From positions 1-31,647 of the IMG/VR virus record IMGVR_UViG_3300049432_000057: a stretch of 31,647 bases of DNA; one strand, 5' to 3'. How positions within the stretch are numbered: position 1 is the first letter of the stretch; each line of letters begins with the position of its first letter. The notes below the pieces were generated by a model. It did no database searches. It was not told the origin of the DNA and saw only the letters and a program-made list of their open reading frames with translations. The stretch is from a virus. This document shows positions 1-25,945 of the stretch, piece by piece. The translations under genes and the position numbers were made by a program.

Positions 1-388
1 ACACGCGGGCTGGCGCGGACGGCAGCACCACGGCTGGCGCTGCTGGTTTCGGGTTATCGACCACTGCCGCAGGGCGCCCCGCAGGGCCTCCGACCAGTTG
101 GAGAGCCGCTTGAAGCGGAGGCAGCAACGGCGATGCGGTTAAGCGTACCGAGTTCCGTTGAGGATTTTTTTTTTGGAGATGCGCCTGGTACTCCTCCTCC
201 GTGATTCGCGTGATGCCCGACTTGGGTTTGAAGACCAACTCGTCCAGCCCCGCGATGGTCTTTGGATCTTCCACGGCGGCGATGCCCAGCCATGACCCGG
301 CGAACAGCTTGTAAACATCAAACGTCACCCGCCGGCCATCAGCCAGCTTCGTGCTCCGGCTGGCGTTGGCTGTGTGGTAAAACGTCAT
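1..388 (-). CDS. Phage protein of unknown function, partial (runs off the left edge)
   Basis: An open frame starts at the ATG at 388 and stays open to the window edge, so the C-terminus is missing. The protein begins [20 protein letters not shown], then has a compact region of about 75 residues and a Pro/Ala-rich tail. I recognise no family. The start overlaps the stop of the upstream AP2-HNH gene (CCATGA), suggesting translational coupling. A run of ten A on the coding strand (165-174) sits inside the frame near codons 72-75. The two other frames after that run give a quick stop or a different basic tail. Its place downstream of the capsid fits a virion or host-interaction protein, but nothing in the sequence shows this. 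Confidence 0.55.
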
Positions 389-879: not shown

Positions 880-1555
880 GCGAACTTTTCTCCGCGATCA
901 CGAAAATGTTTTCCCCACGAAGCTCAGTCGGATAGTGGCTGGCCTTGATGAATTGGGCAATTCTTTTGTGTTGCTCGTCACTGATCGCGTTTCTCCACGA
1001 ATCGACGGTTTCCCTTTTCAATATCGTGAAGCCTGATTGCTGAACCAGCATGTCCAACTCGTACACCGAGAACTCTCGAACGTGCGGTCGGTACAGCATT
1101 GCGGCCCGATGGCTCAAGCAATGGTGCAAGCTGGTGATTGAGGCGCAGTTCGGAGAAGTCAGAAACAGAATTCCTTTTTCCTTCAAGGACAGATGGCAGG
1201 AGGCCAGCATCTTGAGAACTCCGGAGTTCGTCCACTCGGTTGAAATCTCATCGGTTTCCCGATCATGGATATGTTCCGCAACCTCCATTGCGAGGATCAA
1301 ATCCACTGGCTCTTTCAAATCGAATCCGTTCTTCAGATCGCCACCGTAGTAAGGCACCAGTTTTCCAGGCCAGCGTTTTCGGATGATCTCCGTGAACGGG
1401 CTTTCGCCGCCAACGTCCAGGATGCGCTCGGCTTTATCCGCAAGGTCGGCAATCCAGAGCAGGCTTTGCTCGTAACGTTTCGAGTGAACGGCGTTGTAGT
1501 CTTCGGCGGGAGTCATTGTTTTGCAGGGCGTCAGCGTATCACTTTCCGGCTTCAT
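866..1555 (-). CDS. Class I SAM-dependent methyltransferase
   Basis: 229 residues from the ATG at 1555 ([12 protein letters not shown]). The frame opens seven codons earlier at a GTG, and an ATG at 1516 is also possible. Motif I is [14 protein letters not shown], the glycine-rich SAM loop of Rossmann methyltransferases. [14 protein letters not shown] fits the post-motif acidic strand and [15 protein letters not shown] the later beta strand. This pattern belongs to the Methyltransf_11/23 type, which act on small molecules, sugars or proteins, not to DNA methylases, since no DPPY-like motif is present. It overlaps the end of the GH130-like gene by 17 bases. Their pairing suggests modification of a glycan, which is inference. 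Confidence 0.75.
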
Positions 1556-13046: not shown

Positions 13047-16034
13047 CTATCCCGCCGTATAAACGCGCGGAATTGCTACTTCGCCGATCTGCGGGCGCAC
13101 CGTGCCGCGGCCGCGCGCCGCGTAATAAATTCTGGCGTATGTTAAACTGTCGAAGGCGTGCCCGAACCTGGACTTGGCCCGTGGCCGCAGCCGGTTGTTC
13201 GGGTCCTCCTCCAGCTTCCGGAACATCTCGCGCGTCTTCAAGCACGTCGCGCTCACCTGCAGGTCCACGTTGGTCAACCCTTCCCGGCACAGGCGCACGC
13301 GCGTCTCGACCGAGTAGGCGCCCTTGGGTGCCGCCACCATTTTGATGACGCCTTTGCTGAGGTCCTCGATGTCCTTCACGTCAAAGGAACCGGTCGCCGC
13401 GCGGTACTGGTTGAACGCCGAATCGTCGGAGATGTAGTTGACTCTGAATTCATGCGCCTGCCGAGCGCGCCAGTAAGCGACTCGCTCCATGACGATGGGG
13501 ACAAGTTTCGGGTAGGCGATGTAGCGGTCGATGAACACGCACTCGTCGAACACTAGCCAGATGAGGCGATCCTTCACCGGGATGAACTGTTCGAACGTCA
13601 CCGACGAGTGCGCGGCTCCAAGGTCCCAGCCCGTGTCGATGGGAATGCCCGGTATCGGGAGAAGTCCAACGTTGTGGATCGCGTCCCCTTTGACGTGCAG
13701 GTTCTCGTTGTAATCGTTCCGGAACAGACCGTCGCCGACCGGCGCCTCGACCCATTCGCCCAGAATCATCCGGCGATACTCCGTGTCGTCGCCCTTGCAG
13801 CAATCCATCACGGTTTCCAGGTAGCCTTCGGGCAGATTGTGTTTGTTGTCAGCGATTGGAAGGTGCAGGACGTAGTAGCTATCGTTCCATTTGCCAGTCT
13901 TCTCATCCACGGGCATCACGAAGAAGCGGTTGTAGAGCCAGTGCGACGGCCCGGCCGGGTTGCAGGTGTAAACGACGGCCTTGTGCGCTATGTGCCGGTC
14001 GCGTCCGAGTTGTTGGACCAGGTGTTTGAAGTAGGTGTCTGATTCCAACACCTGCGCTTCGTCAACGAGGATGAAGCTCGGTTCGATGCCTTTGACGCGC
14101 GGCGCCACGAACCCTTCGTAGGGCATGGAGACAAGAATCACGCGGGACCAGCCGCCGAACTTGTTGGAGATCCAGATGTAGATGTCCTTGTAACGATTTG
14201 AGCGCGGCTCGGTGAACAGGGCGTTGCCGTTGCGCTCGTAATCGTCGCGGATGTCCGTGTTGAGCTTGTGCCACACGCCGCCCTCCTCTGCCTGCCGTCC
14301 GGTCGGGACGATGATCAGCCCACGCGCGTTTCTGTTCTCGCGGCAATGATCCACCAGAGCGAGCAGGCCAAGGTAAGACTTTGCCGAATTGTGATTGACG
14401 ATCCCATTGGCAATGAAGGAATCGGTTTTGGGAACAGTCAAATCACAGAGCGTCGCCTCGGTAGGAGAGGCTGACTCAACCAACACCCACCTGTCGGTGA
14501 AGGTCAACGCATCCAGAGATTCACTGGTTCCGCAGATTTGTTTGAACCGGTTCAATGTTCCCGGGCTTGGAACATTTCCACAGTGAAGAAAGGATTTCCT
14601 CTTGTTATGCCATGCTCGGGTATGCCCTCGCACCTTCGATCGTCGGGCCTGCATCTCCAAAGCAAATTGCTTCGCTTCGCCACGAGATCCGAAAGTCCTG
14701 CAAAAATCCTCTCCGCGAATGTGCCCAGACACGTTCCAAGTAACGGTTCCTTTGAACCTCCGCGTGGAGACAATTTTCTTTACCTTAAACGGTTTCCGGT
14801 GATTTGGTCGCACGCCAAGACAAGCGGTTCCAGGTTTCAAAGCCTTCATCGCGTCACGGATGAACTCAGGGTATCCATAGGCTTTTCGGTTCACGAAGGC
14901 TACGGATGAAACGCCGTGATCGGATTTGCGCTTTATCTCAAACCCGATTTGGTCAATGAACTTTCGACCTTCTTCGCCCATGCAGTAAGTCTTCCAGCAG
15001 CCAGCCTTCTTATTGGGGCTGAACCTTCTGACCGAAAAAATGCCGAGTGCTTGGAGGCAGTCCTGAACATCCTTCGACAATCCTTCACTGGCAGTCGCAT
15101 GGGCAACACAACCCACTTTTTTATCAACGGTTCCATCCGTATCGAACAAACCACGAAGGAAGGATCGAATCACCGGCGCCGGTGATTCGATAATCTGATC
15201 TGGAATTCGTTTGAACTTGGAGAGCGTGGCCATTCCAAGCTGGCATAGAAGCGCCTTCAGATCAGCAGCATTGCAAATACTGAAACTGTATTTGCGCTTC
15301 CCCGCTCGCAATTCGCATCCAATGGCGGCAAGTTCGTGGCGGACGCGATCCACACATTCGGCATCCGCATTTGTGAACTGAAGCATTCCCCCTTTGGCTG
15401 CGCCGCTCAAAGTGCCATCTCCGCACAGGGCGCCAAGCAGATAGCCCGTCCCTTCGTCCAGGCAGACGCCTTCAACTTTCAGGTAACGCGAAGTCACAAA
15501 CTGCGGATACCTGAGCAATGGCACGTACACCTGACGACCGTTTGAGACGATCCCGGCAATGTCCTCAGCTTTCACAAACCCAGTGAATGCCGTGCCGTCT
15601 TCTTTTCGATAAGCGCACCACAATGGGTGCCACGGAGACACCGTGATGTGATTGCCATTGTTGAATTGAAGCCGCAACGCCTGCCTGCTTGTCTCATTCA
15701 GAAAATGGCTGGTCTTGGCGACCACGGATCGGGAACCATCCCAGCTTAAAATCTCATGCTCGAACGGGTGAAAGCCAGGGTCGGTTGACGGGCGAAGCCT
15801 TCGGAATCTTTTCAATCCTCCGTCCACGTAGAGCAAGGCGCCTTCTTCGATGCAATACTTCTCGCCGAAAATGAGATTGTATTTGTGCGTCTTGATCGCG
15901 TCGAAGCCCTGGCTTTGTACCGGGTTCATCGGCGGACGGTAGGGCCGGTAGTGGAGACCGTGAGGCTGGTCAGGAGTGTCGTACTCCTCCGCGTAGGCTT
16001 CTGTCAGGGCGTCTAATTCTTCGTTCGTTGGCAT
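13047..16034 (-). CDS. terL: Terminase large subunit interrupted by an intein
   Basis: 995-residue precursor; after splicing about 506 residues, normal for TerL. The N-extein ends LIFGEKY (residue 60) and the C-extein resumes SAKSYLGLLAL, so the joined ATPase P-loop is GEKYSAKS, with Ala where Gly is usual. Walker B is FILVDEAQ, the coupling region YTCNPAG. The nuclease domain shows DTGWDLGAAHSS, YISDDSAFNQYR and HAFDSLTYA, matching its metal-binding acids. The protein cuts concatemers and drives DNA into the prohead through the portal. Its start lies inside the end of the upstream HNH gene. Without splicing the ATPase site is not formed. Confidence 0.92.
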   Translation of the reverse strand: MPTNEELDALTEAYAEEYDTPDQPHGLHYRPYRPPMNPVQSQGFDAIKTHKYNLIFGEKYCIEEGALLYVDGGLKRFRRLRPSTDPGFHPFEHEILSWDGSRSVVAKTSHFLNETSRQALRLQFNNGNHITVSPWHPLWCAYRKEDGTAFTGFVKAEDIAGIVSNGRQVYVPLLRYPQFVTSRYLKVEGVCLDEGTGYLLGALCGDGTLSGAAKGGMLQFTNADAECVDRVRHELAAIGCELRAGKRKYSFSICNAADLKALLCQLGMATLSKFKRIPDQIIESPAPVIRSFLRGLFDTDGTVDKKVGCVAHATASEGLSKDVQDCLQALGIFSVRRFSPNKKAGCWKTYCMGEEGRKFIDQIGFEIKRKSDHGVSSVAFVNRKAYGYPEFIRDAMKALKPGTACLGVRPNHRKPFKVKKIVSTRRFKGTVTWNVSGHIRGEDFCRTFGSRGEAKQFALEMQARRSKVRGHTRAWHNKRKSFLHCGNVPSPGTLNRFKQICGTSESLDALTFTDRWVLVESASPTEATLCDLTVPKTDSFIANGIVNHNSAKSYLGLLALVDHCRENRNARGLIIVPTGRQAEEGGVWHKLNTDIRDDYERNGNALFTEPRSNRYKDIYIWISNKFGGWSRVILVSMPYEGFVAPRVKGIEPSFILVDEAQVLESDTYFKHLVQQLGRDRHIAHKAVVYTCNPAGPSHWLYNRFFVMPVDEKTGKWNDSYYVLHLPIADNKHNLPEGYLETVMDCCKGDDTEYRRMILGEWVEAPVGDGLFRNDYNENLHVKGDAIHNVGLLPIPGIPIDTGWDLGAAHSSVTFEQFIPVKDRLIWLVFDECVFIDRYIAYPKLVPIVMERVAYWRARQAHEFRVNYISDDSAFNQYRAATGSFDVKDIEDLSKGVIKMVAAPKGAYSVETRVRLCREGLTNVDLQVSATCLKTREMFRKLEEDPNNRLRPRAKSRFGHAFDSLTYARIYYAARGRGTVRPQIGEVAIPRVYTAG
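14388..15854 (-). other. Intein with LAGLIDADG endonuclease inside TerL
   Basis: 489 residues (61-549 of the precursor). It starts at Cys (CIEEGALLYV) and ends FIANGIVNHN before Ser, giving the C1, terminal HN and +1 Ser needed for protein splicing. HITVSPWHPLW matches the block B histidine region. Two LAGLIDADG-type helices are visible: GYLLGALCGDGT and SFLRGLFDTDGT, both with the catalytic Asp, so the homing nuclease looks intact. The splice site lies within Walker A, a highly conserved target that makes precise loss difficult. Confidence 0.93.
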
Positions 16035-18437: not shown

Positions 18438-19112
18438 TCAGAATACCGTGGCACTCTTTGGCTGCGGTTCCGGCTCTTTGAACGACAGTCGCGCCCGATC
18501 CAACGTTTTCGACCAGTTGCTAAGCAACGAGTGAATAGAGGTTGGAAAGAATTTTCGCTTCGCCGGTTCTAGTTTTGAACGCCAGTCGAGTATCATTCGA
18601 AGTTCTGGTCCAAGTTTTGGCCGTTCACGGATCAGTTCCGCCAACGTGGACTCCTCCATGTAAGACCACGGACTTTCTGGAGGTCGATAGAAGGCGTCGC
18701 CCAAGAGTTGGCGAATTGTCCCAAAATCAACTTCCAGCGTGTTAGGTTCAATGACTGGTTCAGTACTGACTGGTTTGGGTGTCAGGCTGACACCACCCCC
18801 TGGTGACTGGCTGACACCAGGGTGGTGTCTGGCTGACACCCCCTGGTGACAAATCAATCGGTACAGGTTTGAATCCGGATCGCCTTTGGCGTCAAAACGA
18901 GGAATGATTTCTATGAAGGAACGTTCGGATAAATCCTGCAATCGGCGTTGGACCGTGCGCTCGGACAAGAGAGCTTCGCTGGCTAACCGTCGAACTGACG
19001 GCCAGCAGGTGTTTTCGCTGCCGGAATAATTAGCCAGCAGAAGGAGGATGAGTTTTGATTCGGCATCGGGAGGCGTTTGATCTATCGCCCATGTCATAGC
19101 TTGGAAGGACAT
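18438..19112 (-). CDS. Replication initiator (winged-helix, lambda O-like layout)
   Basis: 224 residues from the ATG at 19112 (MSFQAMTWAIDQ); the open frame before it is leader sequence. The N-terminal domain is a winged helix of the replication-initiator type: TWAIDQTPPDAESKLILLLL, CWPSVRRLASEALLSERTVQ, RRLQDLSERSFIEII. The C-terminal part (LAELIRERPKLG, then LLSNWSKTLDRARLSF) may contact the helicase. The linker (about residues 88-115) is encoded by three copies of a GGCTGACACC repeat. Binding domain, repeats in the linker DNA, then a helicase encoded next is the layout of lambda O and ori. Confidence 0.75.
   Translation of the reverse strand: MSFQAMTWAIDQTPPDAESKLILLLLANYSGSENTCWPSVRRLASEALLSERTVQRRLQDLSERSFIEIIPRFDAKGDPDSNLYRLICHQGVSARHHPGVSQSPGGGVSLTPKPVSTEPVIEPNTLEVDFGTIRQLLGDAFYRPPESPWSYMEESTLAELIRERPKLGPELRMILDWRSKLEPAKRKFFPTSIHSLLSNWSKTLDRARLSFKEPEPQPKSATVF
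18785..18840. repeat. Three iterons within the initiator gene; candidate origin
   Basis: The 10-mer GGCTGACACC occurs at 18785, 18809 and 18831, spaced 24 and 22 bases, about two helical turns. The spacers share CCCCTGGTGA or its near-inverse CAGGGTGGTG. Related GACTGG words precede it at 18753-18772. Phased repeats inside an initiator gene suggest the origin. Confidence 0.55.
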
Positions 19113-19311: not shown

Positions 19312-19512
19312 TCACCGCCAGCATTCCTTGTAAGCCGCGTGGTATCTGAATCTTTTGGAGTTGTTCACAAATCCGCTGCTGGCAATCTCCCAAACCGTGC
19401 GGACATGCACACCGGACCACCCGGCGAGTTCAGCGGGTGTTGCCGCGCCGAAGTTGAGCGCCAGCCAGATGAAATGTTTCTGCGGGACGCTGAGGTGGAC
19501 CGGGCGTTTCAC
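19312..19512 (-). CDS. Small HTH protein
   Basis: 66 residues from a GTG at 19512 that overlaps the stop of the J-domain gene (GTGA). The centre reads AATPAELAGWSGVHVRTVWE, a good helix-turn-helix with Ala at the turn-proximal position, so DNA binding is likely. It ends about 90 bases upstream of the extended -10 promoter and may regulate the replication genes there. The coding sequence is short and I recognise no named family. Confidence 0.6.
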   Translation of the reverse strand: MKRPVHLSVPQKHFIWLALNFGAATPAELAGWSGVHVRTVWEIASSGFVNNSKRFRYHAAYKECWR

Positions 19513-19697
19513 TTCGTCACCTTACTGAGCGCTTGTTCCAGTGCTTCCTGAAGCGTCAACCACCTTTCCTGCGTTCCGCCTTTGTCGGGGTGCTCGGTCA
19601 AAGCCTGGATACGGAAAGCTTCACGGACCTCGACCTCGCTTGCGTCAGACATGATACCGAGAACTTGCCACCAACTCTTGCTATATTCTGAGGCCAT
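19509..19697 (-). CDS. Minimal J-domain (DnaJ-like) protein
   Basis: 62 residues, essentially a bare J-domain: SWWQVLGIMSDASEVEVREA (helix I-II), FRIQALTEHPDKGGTQERW with the diagnostic HPD, then LTLQEALEQALSK (helix III). J-domains stimulate the ATPase of DnaK. There is no Gly/Phe region, zinc finger or substrate domain, so it must act with a partner. It sits between the recombination nuclease and the replication genes. Lambda uses host DnaJ/DnaK to remodel its initiation complex, and a phage-encoded J protein here could do the same. Confidence 0.8.
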   Translation of the reverse strand: MASEYSKSWWQVLGIMSDASEVEVREAFRIQALTEHPDKGGTQERWLTLQEALEQALSKVTK

Positions 19698-19718: not shown

Positions 19719-20861
19719 TCAGGCATCCTTCTTCCTCACAAGGCTTGGCGCATTCTGGTGTAACTGGATCAGAGCGCCCAACTTGCTGTTGACGATCGCT
19801 TTTGCTTCGCGCTGTGTGATCCGCCCTGATGTGTCCTTGCGAATCCGCCACAGGGTTCCCTCGATCTCCCCAAGAGCTATACGGCAAGCTGCTGAGAATT
19901 GTTGGGCGTTCAGAAGCTCCGACAACGCCAGCCAGGCCGACGGAATGTCAGTGATGTGTCTGACTTCATCCCCATCGCGGAGCACCCAACCTGGCAATCG
20001 CTCCGGATTAGCCGCCTTGATCGACTTGATTTGATCGTGGACGTGTTCAAACCACCGGATCGCTTCTCCACGTCTGGATTCGAACTCATCCATTTGTTCA
20101 TCATTCCACTGGGCGACTGGAAGATGCCGGACTTTCTCAATCTGGCCGATCCACGCCTTGTATTCCGGGCAGAGGACTTTGGCCGGACAAAAACGGCAAG
20201 CGTCCGCAGAAGCGTTCCTGGGCGCCCCTTCCTGGTGTGCTGCGTCCCAGATGCCGTTGATCTCCATGAGGGCCTTGCCGATGTCATCCTCCGTGTAGGA
20301 CACAGGATCCGCTTTCTTGGACGTGCGCGGTTGCACGATCGCGCCGTAAAACGGAAGGATCGAGTTACTGGCCAGGACAAAGTCCAGGAATTCCTTCTCC
20401 ATGCGCTCGGCCTTCTCGACGGTCTCCAACGCTTCCGGGGTCAAATAGTCGCGGGGCGACAAAGGCTCTGCAATGGCTTTATGGAGCAGGGCGCCTTCCA
20501 TCGAGTCTTGTGTCGGTTCGGGATCGGAAAGCCCCTGGACGGTCATCTGGCGTTCAAAAGCCAGGGCACCTGGGCAAAGTTTGAATCGAAGGAGCGAACT
20601 GGGGCGGAAGTGCTCGGAATAACCGTAGGGGACGCCGCCGTCATCGAACTCCGCCACGGGGATCATGCACAAGTAGGCGCGCAACTGCATGTTGATGTCG
20701 GCCGACGGGACTTCCAACCTCCCGAACTTGAAATCTGTTACCACGGTCACTCCCTGTTTTGGGAACCGCAGGACGCGATCCGGAGTCCCGGCAAAGAGCG
20801 GCTTGCCGTCACGGATGTAAAGGTGAAGATGCTCAATGAGTTCGACGTAGGCGGGTATCAT
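19719..20861 (-). CDS. PD-(D/E)XK nuclease (DUF2800/Cas4-like) with permuted domain order
   Basis: 380 residues from the ATG at 20861, which overlaps the upstream stop (ATGA). The catalytic core comes first: FAGTPDRVL (Asp 28), VVTDFKFGR (Asp 43, Lys 45) and NMQLRAYL. The part that normally opens this family then follows: FRPSSLLRFKLCPGALAFER (Cys 96) and SMEGALLHKAIAE. The end is normal: IVQPRTSKK, then CRFCPAKVLC (Cys 222, 225, 231). Four Cys could hold a 4Fe-4S cluster as in Cas4/AddB. The usual order is Cys-N-terminus, nuclease, C-terminus. It probably resects DNA ends for phage recombination. Confidence 0.8.
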   Translation of the reverse strand: MIPAYVELIEHLHLYIRDGKPLFAGTPDRVLRFPKQGVTVVTDFKFGRLEVPSADINMQLRAYLCMIPVAEFDDGGVPYGYSEHFRPSSLLRFKLCPGALAFERQMTVQGLSDPEPTQDSMEGALLHKAIAEPLSPRDYLTPEALETVEKAERMEKEFLDFVLASNSILPFYGAIVQPRTSKKADPVSYTEDDIGKALMEINGIWDAAHQEGAPRNASADACRFCPAKVLCPEYKAWIGQIEKVRHLPVAQWNDEQMDEFESRRGEAIRWFEHVHDQIKSIKAANPERLPGWVLRDGDEVRHITDIPSAWLALSELLNAQQFSAACRIALGEIEGTLWRIRKDTSGRITQREAKAIVNSKLGALIQLHQNAPSLVRKKDA

Positions 20862-21151
20862 AGCGCTCTTTGTGAAAACCTTGTCACGGCTTTGCGGAGT
20901 CCTGCCAGGACGCGGCTCCAACCGGCTTTCGGCAGCCAGGGTTTCCCGTCGATCGTGCAGCGGAATTGATCGACGCGGGCCATGGAAATGAACAAGAGGA
21001 ACGTGTGCGTTTCGCCGGTCAGCAGGTCGCGGTAAATGATTTCGCGCACTGGCTTGGAACAATCCGGTGCGTCGAAATAATCGGGCGGAGGCGATGCGAT
21101 GCGCTTGCGGCGTTTGGCTGCGAGCGCGTTTCTGGAATGCTTTCGATTCAT
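20858..21151 (-). CDS. Small basic protein of unknown function
   Basis: 97 residues, rich in Arg and Lys at the N-terminus (MNRKHSRNALAAKRRKRIAS), with a mid-section YRDLLTGETHTFLLFISMAR and a basic tail WSRVLAGLRKAVTRFSQRAL. No family recognised. It is coupled to the permuted nuclease by an ATGA overlap and lies directly after the methyltransferase cassette, separated by 47 bases. Nucleic-acid binding or a nuclease partner would fit its charge, but this is only inference. Confidence 0.6.
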   Translation of the reverse strand: MNRKHSRNALAAKRRKRIASPPPDYFDAPDCSKPVREIIYRDLLTGETHTFLLFISMARVDQFRCTIDGKPWLPKAGWSRVLAGLRKAVTRFSQRAL

Positions 21152-21198: not shown

Positions 21199-22290
21199 TT
21201 AGACGGCCAAGGGCAACCCCAGTGTTGTGCAACATCTTTGGTCGCTGAGTTTCAGATACGTCGGGTTGAGTTCAATCAGCACGGCCCGCCGTCCAAGTTC
21301 CAAAGCCACCTTGCCAGTTGTGCCGCTGCCCGCGAACGGGTCCAGCACCAGTCCGCCAGCAGGACACCCCGCGAGAATGCACGGCTTTATCAGATCGGGC
21401 GGGAATGTGGCAAAGTGCGCGTCCTTGTAAGACATCGTTGGCACTGTCCAGACGGAGCGTTTGTTGCGACCCGATTCAGGATTTACGAATGTCTTGGCGC
21501 GATACCATGAAGGTTTGTCCTCGCCTGCGTTGTCAGGCGATTCGTCACGATGATATTTGCTCCCGTTCTCGCCTTGCGTGTGCCGCCCCGTGGAGTTACG
21601 GCCATCATTCATCGTGCTTTCAGCAAGCGGTTCTTTGATCGCTTCGTGATCGTAAAAATAGCTCTCCGATTTAGCCATCAGGAAGACGTATTCGTGGCTC
21701 TTGGTCGGACGATCCGTCACGCTCTCGGGCATCGGATTTGGTTTGTGCCAGATTATGTCAGAGCGCAGATACCAGCCATCCGCTTGCAGTGCCAGAGCAA
21801 CGCGCCACGGTATCCCTATGAGATTCTTTGCGGCTAGGTCGCATGGTGGCGCACCATCCCGGTTACGCGGACTTTCGTTGGTCACGATTCCATCAGCGCG
21901 ACCGGACCCGCGCCTTAGTGCGCGCGCGTAGCCTTCCCCGTAACCGTGTTTACCGTTTGGGCCGCTGCCTCCTTTTGTTGGATTGCTTGCGTAAGAATCG
22001 CCGAGATTCAGCCATAGCGTCCCATCTTTGCGGAGCACCCGCCGCACTTCACGAAAGACTTGCACCATCACGCCGACATATTCTTCCGGCGTGCGTTCGA
22101 GTCCGATTTGGTCGGCGTGGCCGTAGTCCCGCAGCCCCCAATACGGCGGGCTTGTCACGCAGCAGTTCACCGAAGCGTCCGGCAAAGACTTCATCACCTC
22201 TCGGCAATCTCCATTCAAAAGCGTGAGGGGTTGGCCGTCTAACCGAGCGCTGCACCGAACGCCGGGATTGCGGTTGGGTTTCAAGATCAT
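21199..22290 (-). CDS. DNA methyltransferase (TSPPY type) carried as a cassette
   Basis: 363 residues. Motif IV is VTSPPYWGLRDYG (about residues 46-58) and motif I VLDPFAGSGTTGK near the C-terminus, the beta-class order; TSPPY is commonest in N4-cytosine methylases but also occurs in N6-adenine ones. The start codon lies in the loop of site A. The first 20 or so residues (MILKPNRNPGVRCSARLDG) are encoded by the left arm of the site, so they are an add-on to the real domain, which begins near LTLLNGDC. The stop TAA is part of the left core GTTAGAC. No restriction partner is present. Confidence 0.85.
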   Translation of the reverse strand: MILKPNRNPGVRCSARLDGQPLTLLNGDCREVMKSLPDASVNCCVTSPPYWGLRDYGHADQIGLERTPEEYVGVMVQVFREVRRVLRKDGTLWLNLGDSYASNPTKGGSGPNGKHGYGEGYARALRRGSGRADGIVTNESPRNRDGAPPCDLAAKNLIGIPWRVALALQADGWYLRSDIIWHKPNPMPESVTDRPTKSHEYVFLMAKSESYFYDHEAIKEPLAESTMNDGRNSTGRHTQGENGSKYHRDESPDNAGEDKPSWYRAKTFVNPESGRNKRSVWTVPTMSYKDAHFATFPPDLIKPCILAGCPAGGLVLDPFAGSGTTGKVALELGRRAVLIELNPTYLKLSDQRCCTTLGLPLAV

Positions 22291-22327
22291 GGTTTATTCC
22301 CCGGCGTCGGTGAGCTTGTCGTTGTGC
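22237..22327. repeat. attC-like site A
   Basis: GTCTAAC (22237) and GTTGTGC (22321) are the outer cores. The inner arms GCTGCACCGAACGCCGGG and CCCGGCGTCGGTGAGC pair with two extra bases (G, A) in the left arm. The loop holds a stop and, on the minus strand, a GGGGAAT-ATG start used by the methyltransferase. Confidence 0.8.
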
Positions 22328-22578
22328 TGCGCTTCGGCCCGCAACGCCTCTTTCATTTCTCTGAATGATGCGTCACAGACCGCCTCAATATCTCCGTATC
22401 CGGCAACGTATGCGTGCTCCACATTCCAGATGAAGTCTTCTACGGCCTGCTGAAGTCTTGGTTTAGCAACGGGCGCAGCACAACCACTCACTGAAGCCAA
22501 CGCCTTCCCGCCCGGTGGTGAGTAGCACTCATGGCATTTGCATATCTGCGTGTCCATCAGACTGTTTTTGCAGATCAT
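22294..22578 (-). CDS. Cassette protein of unknown function
   Basis: 94 residues (MICKNSLMDTQICKCHECYS at the start). It begins with an ATGA overlap in the right arm of site B and ends with TAA in the loop of site A, so both termini are site-encoded. The core, about residues 35-80, is helical: RLQQAVEDFIWNVEHAYVAG then DASFREMKEALRAEAQ. The N-terminus has CxCxxC (ICKCHEC). A second start, MDTQICKC, is possible at 22554. No family recognised. The cassette proper (about 156 bp between sites) is one of the smallest in the array. Confidence 0.55.
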   Translation of the reverse strand: MICKNSLMDTQICKCHECYSPPGGKALASVSGCAAPVAKPRLQQAVEDFIWNVEHAYVAGYGDIEAVCDASFREMKEALRAEAQHNDKLTDAGE

Positions 22579-22605
22579 CGGCGTAGCTTAGTTCGGTCGT
22601 TCGGC
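22478..22605. repeat. attC-like site B (longest)
   Basis: Outer cores GCACAAC (22478) and GTTCGGC (22599) are 128 bp apart. Inner arms GAAGCCAACGCC and GGCGTAGCTTAG pair with extra bases on the left. It is the most divergent site, with a larger loop, but keeps the geometry and polarity of the others. Confidence 0.65.
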
Positions 22606-22889
22606 GGCTCGGTTCGGGTTGGCGTGAGATTTTGCGCAATCAAGCCTCCACGCCGTAGAGCGGTGTCGAGCCTGTCCACAAGTTCGGTGAGCTTTTGGAA
22701 CTCAGGCGTCATTTCTTTCGGATACCCATTCATCCGGCAGAAGGCGCACAGTTCTACAGCAGCGTCCACGACGCTAGTGTTCATTGGTTTGGTCGTGAGC
22801 GAGCCGTCGGGGTTGAATTGTATTTCCCATTTGCCGGCCTTACCGCTCAGAATTTCTTCGAGTTCTTCGATGGTCGGTCGCTTTGTCAT
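22575..22889 (-). CDS. Cassette protein of unknown function
   Basis: 104 residues (MTKRPTIEELEEILSGKAGK), followed by WEIQFNPDGSLTTKP, a central CAFCRMNGYPKEMTPEFQKL and a site-encoded basic tail (NDRTKLRR). IEELEEIL and a charged helical body look like many small phage early proteins. It is coupled upstream to the zinc-ribbon gene (ATGA) and downstream to the next gene (ATGA in site B). Unlike its neighbours its start is not in an attC-like site; the two genes share one cassette. Function unknown. Confidence 0.7.
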   Translation of the reverse strand: MTKRPTIEELEEILSGKAGKWEIQFNPDGSLTTKPMNTSVVDAAVELCAFCRMNGYPKEMTPEFQKLTELVDRLDTALRRGGLIAQNLTPTRTEPPNDRTKLRR

Positions 22890-23068
22890 ACTTCCTCCAG
22901 TCTGTTATGTCCGCAGTTGTAGCAGCCTGCTCCCTCAAACTCCATGCCTCTCCAAAGCGTAGCGCACGAAGGGCAAATGAATCGCTTCCCTATCCGCCGC
23001 CGCCGAACACTGCGCTGCACCGAACCGCCAATTGCGCTTGGTGATTTGCCTTGGAGTTTCTCTTTCAT
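22886..23068 (-). CDS. Small zinc-ribbon cassette protein
   Basis: 60 residues. The start is in the loop of site C, so the basic N-terminal half (from MKEKLQGKSP to VRRRRIGK) is encoded by the site. The real domain is the zinc ribbon FICPSCATLWRGM then GCYNCGHNRLEEV, with four Cys. A shorter product would lack an obvious start, so the site probably supplies translation initiation. Such ribbons are common in small phage proteins; no specific role can be assigned. Confidence 0.6.
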   Translation of the reverse strand: MKEKLQGKSPSAIGGSVQRSVRRRRIGKRFICPSCATLWRGMEFEGAGCYNCGHNRLEEV

Positions 23069-23108
23069 ACGTCAGAGGCTGGCGGTCGGTGAGCTTGGGT
23101 CGTTCGGC
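23002..23108. repeat. attC-like site C
   Basis: GCCGAAC (23002) and GTTCGGC (23102), extended outward to GCCGCCGAAC / GTTCGGCGGC. Inner arms GCTGCACCGAACCGCCA and TGGCGGTCGGTGAGC pair with extra G and A on the left. The loop carries the ATG of the zinc-ribbon gene on the minus strand. Confidence 0.8.
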
Positions 23109-23111
23109 GGC

Positions 23112-23381
23112 TTACTCTTCATACTCGTCGCCTTCGCAGTCGGGGCAGCCGAAGCATTCTACCTCGCCATGCCAGTGACAAACGCAAAAGTCGCCACCGC
23201 AGAGGCACTCGATTGAGCCTTGCCCGCCGCAGCGTGTCGGAAGTGGCGCGTAGTACGGATTCTTCACCCCGCACCAGCACACTTCCACCTTGGTTTCGCT
23301 TTCCACGTCCGCCGCCGAACACTGCGCTGCAGGCGACGGCGGGGAGCCGGTTGAGTCAGGCCTTGGGTCAGGGGTATTCAT
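23112..23381 (-). CDS. Cys-rich acidic cassette protein
   Basis: 89 residues. The first 25 or so (MNTPDPRPDSTGSPPSPAAQ and on) come from site D. The domain is Cys-rich and acidic: CWCGVKNPYYAPL, then CGGQGSIECLCGGDFCVCHW, then ECFGCPDCEGDEYEE. The Cys pairs indicate zinc binding. I recall similar short acidic Cys-rich proteins in phage early regions, without known function. The start ATG overlaps the previous stop (ATGA) in the loop of site D. The stop lies just outside site C. Confidence 0.7.
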   Translation of the reverse strand: MNTPDPRPDSTGSPPSPAAQCSAADVESETKVEVCWCGVKNPYYAPLPTRCGGQGSIECLCGGDFCVCHWHGEVECFGCPDCEGDEYEE

Positions 23382-23420
23382 TTATCAGTTGCCCGCCGCG
23401 CCTGAGCTTGGTAGTTCGGC
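23314..23420. repeat. attC-like site D
   Basis: GCCGAAC (23314) and GTTCGGC (23414). Inner arms GCTGCAGGCGACGGCGGG and CCCGCCGCGCCTGAGC differ from the other sites yet stay complementary, again with extra G and A on the left. This compensatory change argues for selection on the hairpin. Confidence 0.82.
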
Positions 23421-23842
23421 GGAATCTCCAGGCCACGCGAGGGGCGCGGACCCACCATGATCGCCAGAGGGGTCGGCAGCTTTTCCACGAGTGGTCGCCA
23501 GAGATGCAAGCACGCCTGATGATAGTTCACGTATTCGCTTTTGGCGGGGTGGAACTGACAAACCCAGTCCTCCGGTTCCCAGAATAACTCTTTTACCCAG
23601 CACATGAGGCCCCAGCGCGGCGGACTCTTATCCATCTCCACGGATACGGAGACGTGTTGCCATTTGAAACGCTCATCCTCAAAATCTGTTCCATCGCTGG
23701 CGATGCACCGGACTATTTCACCGTCCTTCGGTAGTCGAAAGAGACCGTTGAAGCCGTAGCTGTCGTCCGACCAGTACTGCGGAGGTATCGTCAGCGTTCC
23801 CGCTTTCACACGATGCTTGTTCAGCAATGCCCAGTCGCTCAT
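23378..23842 (-). CDS. DUF7694-like phage protein carried as a cassette
   Basis: 154 residues from the ATG at 23842 (MSDWALLNKHRVKAG). The family signature is clear from memory: KWQHVSVSVE, PRWGLMCWVKELFWEPEDW, VCQFHPAKSEYVNYHQACLH, then LWRPLVEKLPTP. Such proteins occur in phages and prophages; function is not known to me. The last residues (QAQARRATDK) come from site D, where the TGA lies in the loop. Its ATG overlaps the stop of a 21-residue leader encoded by site E. Confidence 0.8.
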   Translation of the reverse strand: MSDWALLNKHRVKAGTLTIPPQYWSDDSYGFNGLFRLPKDGEIVRCIASDGTDFEDERFKWQHVSVSVEMDKSPPRWGLMCWVKELFWEPEDWVCQFHPAKSEYVNYHQACLHLWRPLVEKLPTPLAIMVGPRPSRGLEIPPNYQAQARRATDK

Positions 23843-23904
23843 AAGCAATTCCGCCGAACCACGCGCTGCACCGAACGCCGGGGAGTCGTCTCGGTTGAAG
23901 TCAT
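23839..23904 (-). CDS. Site E leader peptide (21 residues)
   Basis: An ATG in the loop of site E, preceded by GGGAAG, opens MTSTETTPRRSVQRVVRRNC plus Leu, and its TGA overlaps the ATG of the DUF7694-like gene. This is what a leader for translational coupling looks like. It could also be a chance frame through the hairpin arm. Confidence 0.35.
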   Translation of the reverse strand: MTSTETTPRRSVQRVVRRNCL

Positions 23905-23944
23905 AGCGTTTTCTTCCCGGCGTCGGTGAGCTTGGTAGTTAGGC
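23853..23944. repeat. attC-like site E (mixed cores)
   Basis: GCCGAAC (23853) on the left and GTTAGGC (23938) on the right do not fully match each other, but each matches the far end of its own cassette. Inner arms GCTGCACCGAACGCCGGG and CCCGGCGTCGGTGAGC pair with extra G and A on the left. Confidence 0.82.
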
Positions 23945-24217
23945 CAATGCGCCTTTGTATGGTTCAAAGCTCTTACCGAACATCTCGCAACACCAGTTAT
24001 GGGCGGCGACGATGTGCGATGATGGTATTCTTTGACTGCTTGTATCCAGATGGACGAGCCACCAGATTCCAGGGCTTTCGTTGATGTCGTGTGGCCGTTC
24101 AAAAGCGAATTGTGTGTGATGACCATGAATGCAGATTGCTTCATCAAAGATCACTTGGCTGTCGGCGATGGTTACGTTGTAGCCGATGCCAGAAAGGATG
24201 GTTGTTTGTTGTGTCAT
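23939..24217 (-). CDS. Cassette protein of unknown function
   Basis: 92 residues from the ATG at 24217 (MTQQTTILSGIGYNVTIADS), which overlaps the stop of the leader encoded by site F. The protein is compact with several aromatic and His residues (AICIHGHHTQFAFE, SPGIWWLVHLDTSS, AAHNWCCEMFGKSFEPY). The stop TAA is part of the core of site E (GCCTAAC on the minus strand). No family recognised. The frame is open for another 110 codons upstream, but that part only reads through site F and the neighbouring cassette out of frame. Confidence 0.65.
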   Translation of the reverse strand: MTQQTTILSGIGYNVTIADSQVIFDEAICIHGHHTQFAFERPHDINESPGIWWLVHLDTSSQRIPSSHIVAAHNWCCEMFGKSFEPYKGALA

Positions 24218-24276
24218 AATTGGCCTAACCAAGCGCTGCACCGAACGGCGGGATTGCGGTTGGGTTTCAAGATCAT
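24214..24276 (-). CDS. Site F leader peptide (20 residues)
   Basis: The loop of site F offers GGGGAAG and an ATG that opens MILKPNRNPAVRCSAWLGQL; the TGA overlaps the ATG of the next cassette gene. The same opening residues form the fused N-terminus of the methyltransferase at site A, where no stop intervenes. Confidence 0.4.
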   Translation of the reverse strand: MILKPNRNPAVRCSAWLGQL

Positions 24277-24315
24277 GGTTTCTTCCCCGCCGTCGGTGAG
24301 CTTGGGTCGTTCGGC
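24223..24315. repeat. attC-like site F (mixed cores)
   Basis: GCCTAAC (24223) and GTTCGGC (24309) are mixed in the opposite sense to site E, so the cassette between them has matching ends GTTAGGCCAAT / ATTGGCCTAAC. Loop and arms are nearly identical to site A. Confidence 0.85.
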
Positions 24316-24593
24316 TGCGCGGACATGCGCTTTTCCAGTTCGTCGAGTTTTGCGTCCACGTCGTCGCGTTTGTACCACTGCTCGCCTCCGTTCGCGGGAT
24401 GCGTTGGGACGAGGTTGTGTTCGCCTGGATAAACTGACATGGCGTAGGGCTGTATGCCTCTACAGCAGCATCTGGCTCTTTCTCTCGTGCAGATTTCGCA
24501 ATAGTCAGCCTCGGTCGCGTCAGCCGAACCAAGCGCTGCAGCGAACCCGGCATTTGTTTTCGGTTTGGCCATAAGTTTCAGGTGTTTGCTCAT
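24273..24593 (-). CDS. Cassette protein of unknown function (first in the array)
   Basis: 106 residues. Residues 1-28 or so (MSKHLKLMAKPKTNAGFAAA and on) derive from the array edge and half site G, and the last residues (SSPTAGKKP) from site F. Between them are a Cys cluster (CEICTRERARCCCRG) and GGEQWYKRDDVDAKLDELEK, a charged helix. A start at MSVYPGEHN is possible. The ATG at 24593 overlaps the stop of the preceding early gene. Function unknown. Confidence 0.6.
   Translation of the reverse strand: MSKHLKLMAKPKTNAGFAAALGSADATEADYCEICTRERARCCCRGIQPYAMSVYPGEHNLVPTHPANGGEQWYKRDDVDAKLDELEKRMSAQPNDPSSPTAGKKP
24523..24551. repeat. Half attC-like site G, right end of the array
   Basis: GCCGAAC followed by AAGCGCTGCAGCGAACCCGG is a left core and left arm, but no matching right arm or right core occurs in the next 100 bases. 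It is either a site cut by deletion or the natural outer boundary of the array. Confidence 0.6.
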
Positions 24594-25945
24594 TTCCGAG
24601 CCGCCGCCTTCTTGTCCATCCGGACCTGGGCGGCGATGATCTGCGCGTTGTCCAGAAGGTCGGTGAGGATGTCATCCGGTAGCTGAACCAACTGCTCGAT
24701 CTTCGCGTCGCAGATGTCCCGGCGTTTCAGGACGCCAAGTACTTCCTGTTCCGTGACGTTCTGAGCCTTCAACATCTCGTAGGTCTGATCGTGAAGGTTG
24801 GGGACCGGTTGACCACCACCCGGCAACTCAGGTTGTTGCTCCTGCGGGGGCTGGGGCTGTTCGGGTTCGGGTTCCGCTGGTGGCGGTTCCGGTTCCGTGG
24901 GCGGATCGGACATGGCCGACTTCTTCTTACCGATCCCTGCCCGCGCCTTCGCCATTCGTTCCTGCGCCGGGGTCATCCCGGTGACCGCCGCTGGTGTCGT
25001 CACCGTCCCGACCGGATCTGCGGACTTGGTTTCTGCGGGCTTGGTCTCTGCTGGCGCCGTCGTGGTTTGGGTTTCGGCAGCTTTCGCCGGGGCAAGGCCA
25101 GCTTCGGACTCGGCTTTTTCATCCTTCTTTTTCTCCTCCTCCTTCTTCTTCTCATCGAACTTCGCCGGCTTGGGCGTCGCCGTCAGATCAAAGAAGTCTT
25201 CCCTCTTGCCCATGCCGTCCTTCAGGGACGTGTAAATCTTCCGGAGGATGACGACTTCCTGTTCGATCACGGCCTCCAACTTGTGCTGGAGACGGCGCTC
25301 GATCATTTCCATCGTGACGCCCAACTCACCGAATGCAGTCACGATCTTCCGGACCCGGTCGGTGATCGGTTCAGTGTGCCCGGCCTTGAGGGTCTTGTCG
25401 CACTGCTCAAGGGCGGCATCAATCACATCTCGCGGGATCACGGCTTCAAGGCAGGCGCGCTTGCGCCGTGCGGCGAAATTGGCCACTAACTCGTATTGGT
25501 CGCGTGGGTCAGTCAGCTTGGTAACGCCTTCCTTGCTGTAGCGCTCGTGGCGCACCGTGAACGTCTTTGAATCATACACATTCGTCTGAATATCCCATCC
25601 GAAACATTGCACTCGGCTCTCTCCGTTCTCATTGCTCAATTCCACGACGCCCGACTGGATGTTTCCCCACGCGACAGCAACGGCTTCCAGCAATCGGATG
25701 GACGCGCCGGTAATCTGCGTGCCTCCGCGCGAGTAAAGGTAGCTGGCTTCTTCCGCCAAAGTGCGGCGTTTGCACGCTGTAATGACGCGCTGAAACGCCT
25801 CGTGTTCATCACGGGGATACTTTTTTGCCACAACCAGGGCCGCTTGCATTTCCTGCGCGTCCTTGGATTGGGCGACTTGGACAATGGCGTTGGTCGGGCC
25901 TGCTGCAACTGCGAAGGGATTAGATGATGACGGGTGTGTTTCCAT
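24590..25945 (-). CDS. Conserved phage early protein, possible recombination function
   Basis: 451 residues. The N-terminal 200 or so are well ordered: GGTQITGASIRLLEAVAVAW, FGWDIQTNVYDSKTF, VTKLTDPRDQYELVANFAAR and RRKRACLEAVIPRDVIDAAL. I recall this family from many phage recombination regions beside PD-(D/E)XK nucleases, and a strand-annealing role would fit, though I cannot name a domain. Residues 265-370 are a Lys/Glu then Pro/Thr-rich linker. The C-terminal helical domain (MLKAQNVTEQEVLGVLKRRD) may bind a partner. It overlaps the HNH gene upstream by 26 bases. Confidence 0.6.
   Translation of the reverse strand: METHPSSSNPFAVAAGPTNAIVQVAQSKDAQEMQAALVVAKKYPRDEHEAFQRVITACKRRTLAEEASYLYSRGGTQITGASIRLLEAVAVAWGNIQSGVVELSNENGESRVQCFGWDIQTNVYDSKTFTVRHERYSKEGVTKLTDPRDQYELVANFAARRKRACLEAVIPRDVIDAALEQCDKTLKAGHTEPITDRVRKIVTAFGELGVTMEMIERRLQHKLEAVIEQEVVILRKIYTSLKDGMGKREDFFDLTATPKPAKFDEKKKEEEKKKDEKAESEAGLAPAKAAETQTTTAPAETKPAETKSADPVGTVTTPAAVTGMTPAQERMAKARAGIGKKKSAMSDPPTEPEPPPAEPEPEQPQPPQEQQPELPGGGQPVPNLHDQTYEMLKAQNVTEQEVLGVLKRRDICDAKIEQLVQLPDDILTDLLDNAQIIAAQVRMDKKAAARK

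Follow-up and report, generated by a model that had tools for sequence, protein, structure and literature searches.

The locus raises the question of how a putative phage nuclease came to begin with its catalytic segment, and whether a chain arranged in this way is a genuine, working enzyme or an accident of assembly. The window (the whole stretch of DNA analysed, a 31,647-base IMG/VR virus record) encodes on its minus strand a protein of 380 aa, P0001, in an uninterrupted ORF with an ATG start. The initial annotation had described this frame as unbroken and coupled to its neighbour; it is open throughout and its start overlaps the stop codon of the upstream ORF in an ATGA, by which the two ORFs are likely to be translationally coupled. 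P0001 scored above the curated Pfam cut-offs for DUF2800 (PF10926; 42.9 bits, cut-off 21, in two separate stretches, the best of which covers residues 174-337 only) and PDDEXK_1 (33.2 bits, cut-off 22, in three separate stretches), and it matched the PHROGs exonuclease family phrog_69 in three stretches (2.1e-21). By these profiles P0001 is a putative DUF2800-type, RecB/Cas4-like nuclease, and the earlier wording 'Cas4/DUF2800-like' holds to this extent. Cas4 proper was ruled out for P0001, which reached 21.8 bits with TIGR00372 against a cut-off of 65; its relatives L002 and L007 reached 29.4 and 26.6 bits.

The ancestral order of the family would have been A-B-C, with A comprising helices, one Fe-S Cys and the EGxxxH motif, B the GTxD...D-x-K sheet and the QLxxY helix, and C the QPR strand and the CxxCPxxxxC motif. 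A profile comparison segment by segment, as had been proposed initially, was carried out with P0001 cut into pieces B (residues 1-84), A (85-168) and C (169-380), which fell at phrog_69 positions 201-243, 91-133 and 262-460, respectively. The A piece of P0001 alone gave a weak match to phrog_69 (E=0.13), and that of L007 matched phrog_69 at 91-132 (E=1.4e-4) and DUF2800 at 6-51 (E=0.0012). No match was obtained with the A piece of L002 scanned alone, and no phrog_69 match with the B piece of L007 scanned alone. Besides P0001, the B-A-C order was found in L002 (IMGVR_UViG_3300049455_000057; 69% identity to P0001), L007 (3300044983_000233; 55%), L008 (3300048894_000051; 54%) and L139 (3300012208_000177; 60%). 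Segment HMMs (nA, nB and nC), made solely from 53 normal-order homologues of viral contigs, hit in the order B, A, C in all five permuted proteins, none of which showed the A-B-C order of the family. P0001 scored 21.6 bits with nB (residues 16-64), 15.7 with nA (85-156) and 57.2 with nC (174-322); the ranges over the five proteins were 19.5-23.8, 15.7-31.2 and 57.2-64.1 bits, and the top scores of 100 shuffled controls, derived from the first four permuted proteins, were 3.4, 3.0 and -0.9 bits. In pairwise comparisons the segments of the normal-order protein L003 also matched the permuted proteins in swapped order (in P0001, A at 89-143, B at 39-65 and C at 171-354). At the level of sequence the B-A-C segment order is confirmed as real, with chance excluded.

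The HMMs agree with the first description of P0001 in that the catalytic segment precedes the usual opening segment, but the term 'circular' has to be abandoned. A circular permutation would be a rotation, B-C-A or C-A-B, and was ruled out because B-A-C is no rotation of A-B-C. Two segments have been exchanged and the third, C, is still last, so by its segment order the nuclease is a non-circular permutation. In the AlphaFold2 model the QLRAY helix (58-65) and the QPR strand (171-176) are joined by a loop that now holds the helical A. The argument that closeness of the first and last strands would let a permuted chain fold fits the circular case and concerns a geometry that is irrelevant to B-A-C. 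In the alpha-beta-beta-beta-alpha-beta core, the start of strand 1 and the start of the last strand share one sheet edge, so that either could serve as the end point of module A.

The probable explanation, in our view, is that a phage DUF2800/phrog_69 nuclease underwent a non-circular permutation specific to this lineage. Module A would now be located inside the B-C loop, so that the protein begins at the first catalytic strand, and B and C would still build the PD-(D/E)XK sheet. A would pack back on the B-C sheet via a linker of about 16-22 residues and a short A-C joint, and C96 would meet C222, C225 and C231 at one predicted Fe-S cluster. The enzyme would resect DNA ends in phage recombination or replication, as would its normal-order relatives. 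The segment order, the conservation of the motifs, the single clade, the purifying selection and a confident B+C model are established by the results below, whereas the native docking of A, the cluster, the nuclease activity and the biological role are inferred.

Features of the permuted nuclease gene and associated ORFs (positions in the window; residues refer to P0001)
Feature	Position	Strand	Basis or remark
Permuted (B-A-C) DUF2800/phrog_69-type putative PD-(D/E)XK nuclease gene, 380 aa	19719..20861	-	ORF, profiles and segment HMMs
ATGA overlap of nuclease start and upstream ORF stop	20858..20861	-	
Upstream 97-aa ORF	20858..21151	-	No family match in profile scans
Segment B (residues 1-68), middle segment in normal order	20658..20861	-	nB HMM, phrog_69, AlphaFold2 secondary structure
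GTPD, residues 25-28, segment B	20778-20789	-	
DFK, residues 43-45, segment B	20727-20735	-	
QLRAY, residues 59-63, segment B	20673-20687	-	
Linker B to A, residues 69-84 (about 66-87)	20610..20657	-	Sequence and length vary among members; model confidence low
Segment A (residues 85-168), all-helical, N-terminal in normal order	20358..20609	-	nA HMM; A piece of L007
C96, segment A	20574-20576	-	
H127, segment A	20481-20483	-	
Segment C, first part (residues 169-236)	20154..20357	-	nC HMM 57.2 bits; DUF2800 176-365
QPR, residues 177-179, segment C	20325-20333	-	
C222, C225, C231 (CxxCPxxxxC), segment C	20169-20198	-	
C-terminal helical region (residues 237-380), within DUF2800/phrog_69 profiles	19722..20153	-	phrog_69 262-460
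J-domain-only ORF (tiny), directly downstream of the nuclease	19509..19697	-	PF00226 1.3e-7
phrog_3657 protein	24590..25945	-	Conserved in the L007 and L008 contigs (225-249 aa aligned at 74-75% identity)

The catalytic GxxD, DxK and QLxxY motifs, the H and the Cys motifs of the family are all present, and E10, D28, D43, K45, Q59, Y63, C96, H127, Q177, R179, C222, C225 and C231 are invariant in the five permuted proteins. The roles of these motifs in P0001 are presumably those of the PD-(D/E)XK superfamily. Segment A carries SLLRFKLCPG (residues 89-98) and EGALLH (residues 122-127). The usual C-terminus with three Cys, noticed at the outset, corresponds to C222, C225 and C231 of segment C; the fourth, C96, lies in the relocated segment A, and the Cys order C96, C222, C225, C231 is retained. 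The Cas4 family likewise has four conserved Cys (PMC5704561).

AlphaFold2 gave a pLDDT of 36.3 with four permuted sequences alone, and a pLDDT of 82.3 and a pTM of 0.63 with an alignment of 70 rows (3 permuted sequences plus, from normal enzymes, 60 B-C pieces and 7 A pieces), with low confidence at residues 1-6 and 83-95. This mix was picked after 43 MAFFT trials since the tested motifs stayed in register; with many A pieces or with separate C pieces, one segment was mis-registered by MAFFT. The packing of B on C is partly imposed, because most of the alignment rows are contiguous normal B-C pieces, and the modelled A rests on the 3 permuted sequences and the 7 A pieces. Segment B was modelled with strands at 13-17, 20-25, 29-33 and 38-44 and a helix at 58-65, and segment A with helices at 88-95, 97-108, 118-131 and 142-164. 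In RecB-type nucleases such as Cas4, AdnA, EXO5 and MGME1, the helical module precedes the sheet. The top structural match in VIA-align was the AdnA nuclease (129 residues, 3.3 A, model 5..234 on chain 890..1039), with a Z of 6.9 that is in the middling range by the program's own grading. Among the 15 best rows were ten chains of AdnA, Cas4, SSO0001, MGME1 or EXO5, each aligned with a model range that ran from residue 1-5 to residue 210-273, spanning B and C. B and C superposed in sequence order on AdnA, Cas4, EXO5 and MGME1 with Z 6.9-4.2, an agreement that is partly imposed by the alignment. Since VIA-align is a sequential aligner, an A in its old place would be invisible to it. No PDB entry was matched by Foldseek at E <= 0.001, EXO5 coming closest with 4.8e-3; against viral models Foldseek gave 14 matches at E <= 0.001, several of them named DUF2800, with TM values of 0.26-0.47 by query, which are as low as expected from a sequential aligner. 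The model supports, and does not prove, a normal B-C core in the permuted nuclease.

The joint between B and A is long, variable and of low confidence and would permit an exchange of A between chains, and the A-C joint is short. A domain-swapped oligomer, in which A is contributed to the B-C sheet by a second chain and the order works only as a dimer, is nevertheless unlikely, as even in the absence of a partner chain the predicted monomer is confident over the greater part of B, A and C, and no sequence feature demands a dimer. It would be less likely still that the protein is catalytically dead or repurposed, its fold destroyed and the chain kept for DNA binding or as a partner of the upstream ORF. 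Such a protein would fit the general expectation that a compact core is usually harmed when it is rearranged; the invariance of the recognised catalytic and Cys positions in 5/5 proteins argues against it. The same holds for the substitution pattern: by the NG86 method dN was 0.27 and dS 1.22 between P0001 and L002, with dS near saturation, and dN was lower than dS in all segment comparisons in which both were computable and non-zero, with dS near or beyond saturation. The permuted nuclease is under purifying selection. Also, no second DUF2800 gene was found in the window or in the L002, L007 and L008 records, where a normal-order backup copy is thus ruled out. Because the catalytic and Cys residues are invariant, the gene is the sole DUF2800 gene in these four records and it is under purifying selection, the permuted protein is most likely an active end-resecting phage exonuclease of rewired topology, to judge from its sequence.

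DUF2800 has been described as a PD-(D/E)-XK nuclease-like gene of a phage duf2800-gp2.5-polA module (PMC8093625). The normal-order gene of L003 comes after a RecT-family gene; among the scanned ORFs of the window no RecT-like gene was recognised by profile. The window also encodes a DnaB-type helicase, a replication initiator, a RusA resolvase and a methyltransferase. Within the replication-initiator ORF, three consecutive 20-bp copies, partly palindromic (GGTGTC..GACACC) and resembling origin iterons, were observed at 18778-18843. By tblastn, the nuclease of L002, L007/L140 and L008 is likewise followed by a J-domain homologue, which in L007 and L008 forms the C-terminal end of a 216-aa protein. 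L139 has a HerA-like ATPase and a DnaA-C domain gene as neighbours. A further observation concerns the region 22237-24546 of the window, where a 24-bp dispersed repeat occurs five times (83-100% alike), in part inside an 80-bp repeat, among small ORFs; similar peptide strings were also present in ORFs of L002.

An assembly artefact or a one-off rearrangement, the default expectation for a single metagenome contig, is refuted to the point of negligible probability, as P0001, L002, L007, L008 and L139 agree in segment order and junctions and the four other contigs encode proteins of 54-69% identity to P0001. Since L007 and L008 are 99% alike, the five contigs represent four distinct lineages. 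Identity between the window and the L007 contig is 67% for the terminase (extein), 87% for a capsid-like ORF and 77% for a portal-like ORF; the terminase of L002 is 68% identical to that of the window. The names 'capsid' and 'portal' are our guesses from gene context for ORFs without a profile match. Because these ORFs are common to the window and L007, and in part to L002, the carriers of the permuted nuclease are, as judged from gene content, partly one phage group and not five unrelated pick-ups. The large terminase ORF of the window (13047-16034, minus strand) contains a LAGLIDADG-type intein at about residues 62-549 of the protein (PF14528, Intein_splicing), whereas no insert is present at this site in the terminase gene of either L002 or the L007 contig. 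A stretch of the DnaB-like helicase ORF of L002 (4171-6624, plus strand) is 32% identical to part of this intein, which suggests that the related phage L002 may have an intein in a different gene, that of the DnaB-like helicase.

The family was surveyed with a QPR...CxFCP DNA pattern that is blind to A and B. It yielded at least 120 loci, of which 107 had a reading frame and 13 were dropped. Among the 107 sampled phage homologues 99 were A-B-C, 7 B-C and 1 C, and none was B-A-C; seven of the eight partial ones lay on frames open at the 5' end of the contig. As 53 of the 107 were the HMM-building sequences, which a regex had selected for A-B-C order, and as the survey is a sample, the rarity of B-A-C is an estimate from this sample. 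The other 54 comprised 46 A-B-C proteins, 7 with B-C or C on open frames, and L050, a divergent B-C protein of 509 aa without an A match. Permuted members were scanned for with exact short peptide patterns, which distant ones may escape. No relative was found in two scans of genome contigs or among plasmids, and the INPHARED phage collection yielded partial matches only. In a C-segment tree (104 rows, quick IQ-TREE, midpoint root) the five permuted rows formed one clade (SH-aLRT 100), which grouped with the normal-order L003 and L005 (SH-aLRT 98), so that on the C segment the permuted proteins descend from within the family. Segment B scores against normal relatives were weak for placing the nearest ones. 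Relatives of the same order, which, it had been argued at the outset, would make the arrangement ordinary, thus do exist, but they amount to a small clade next to a family of normal order.

A single swap inside the normal-order family would be the simplest history. Tandem duplication followed by a new start yields circular permutation and not such an order, as has been argued for RNA (PMC10085705). The B-A-C order may have arisen in one of two ways: either A-B was partly duplicated, after which the first A and the second B were lost, or module A was relocated into the B-C loop. No duplicated-segment intermediate (e.g. A-B-A-B-C) was detected among the 107 sampled homologues, in which no second copy exceeded 8 bits.

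The normal-order counterpart L003, a DUF2800 (PF10926)/phrog_69 protein of Akkermansia phage DTMo-2021a (L003:2431-3648), is with L005 among the nearest normal-order relatives of P0001 in the C-segment tree. It is homologous to P0001 in all three segments, with like catalytic and Cys motifs, and differs in being A-B-C, so that DUF2800 (5-317) and PDDEXK_1 (3-247) each match it unbroken. Another phage protein in which two of three structural elements have naturally changed places is the BPP-1 major capsid protein, with its non-circularly permuted HK97 fold (PMC3863775). It has a capsid fold and is not an enzyme, and it lacks recognisable sequence similarity to normal-order relatives, whereas for P0001 the homology is direct and the parent family traceable. 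Non-circularly permuted hammerhead ribozymes (PMC10085705) likewise show a non-cyclic reordering of blocks with their motifs kept, in RNA and not in protein. Non-circular permutations are stated to be rare in nature (PMC3863775) and, inside a protein domain, to be even less common than circular ones (PMC10085705), but non-sequential structural similarity was found to be widespread among solved structures in one survey (PMC2213659). Among the papers listed in a literature search none reported a permuted DUF2800 or Cas4-type nuclease, and an earlier mention of permuted members of the PD-(D/E)XK superfamily is possible. We lean, with reserve, towards regarding the present case as the first natural functional non-circular permutation of a PD-(D/E)XK (RecB/Cas4-type) core with a parent family, a single origin and both junctions readable in sequence. 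The first core helix module and its Fe-S Cys would have left their place ahead of strand 1 and would now link the second core helix to the last strand, so that the same active site is built with a new chain topology.

One practical consequence is that annotation by order-dependent profiles can undercount permuted proteins. The ancestry of the BPP-1 protein is obscure, whereas here swapped and unswapped enzymes are recognisably homologous, several diverged members are at hand and the swap looks like one event. The nuclease clade therefore allows direct questions on how a swap arises, which linkers it needs and how far an active site and an Fe-S cluster tolerate rewiring, and it offers a rare natural test of how far the rewiring of a protein chain can go.
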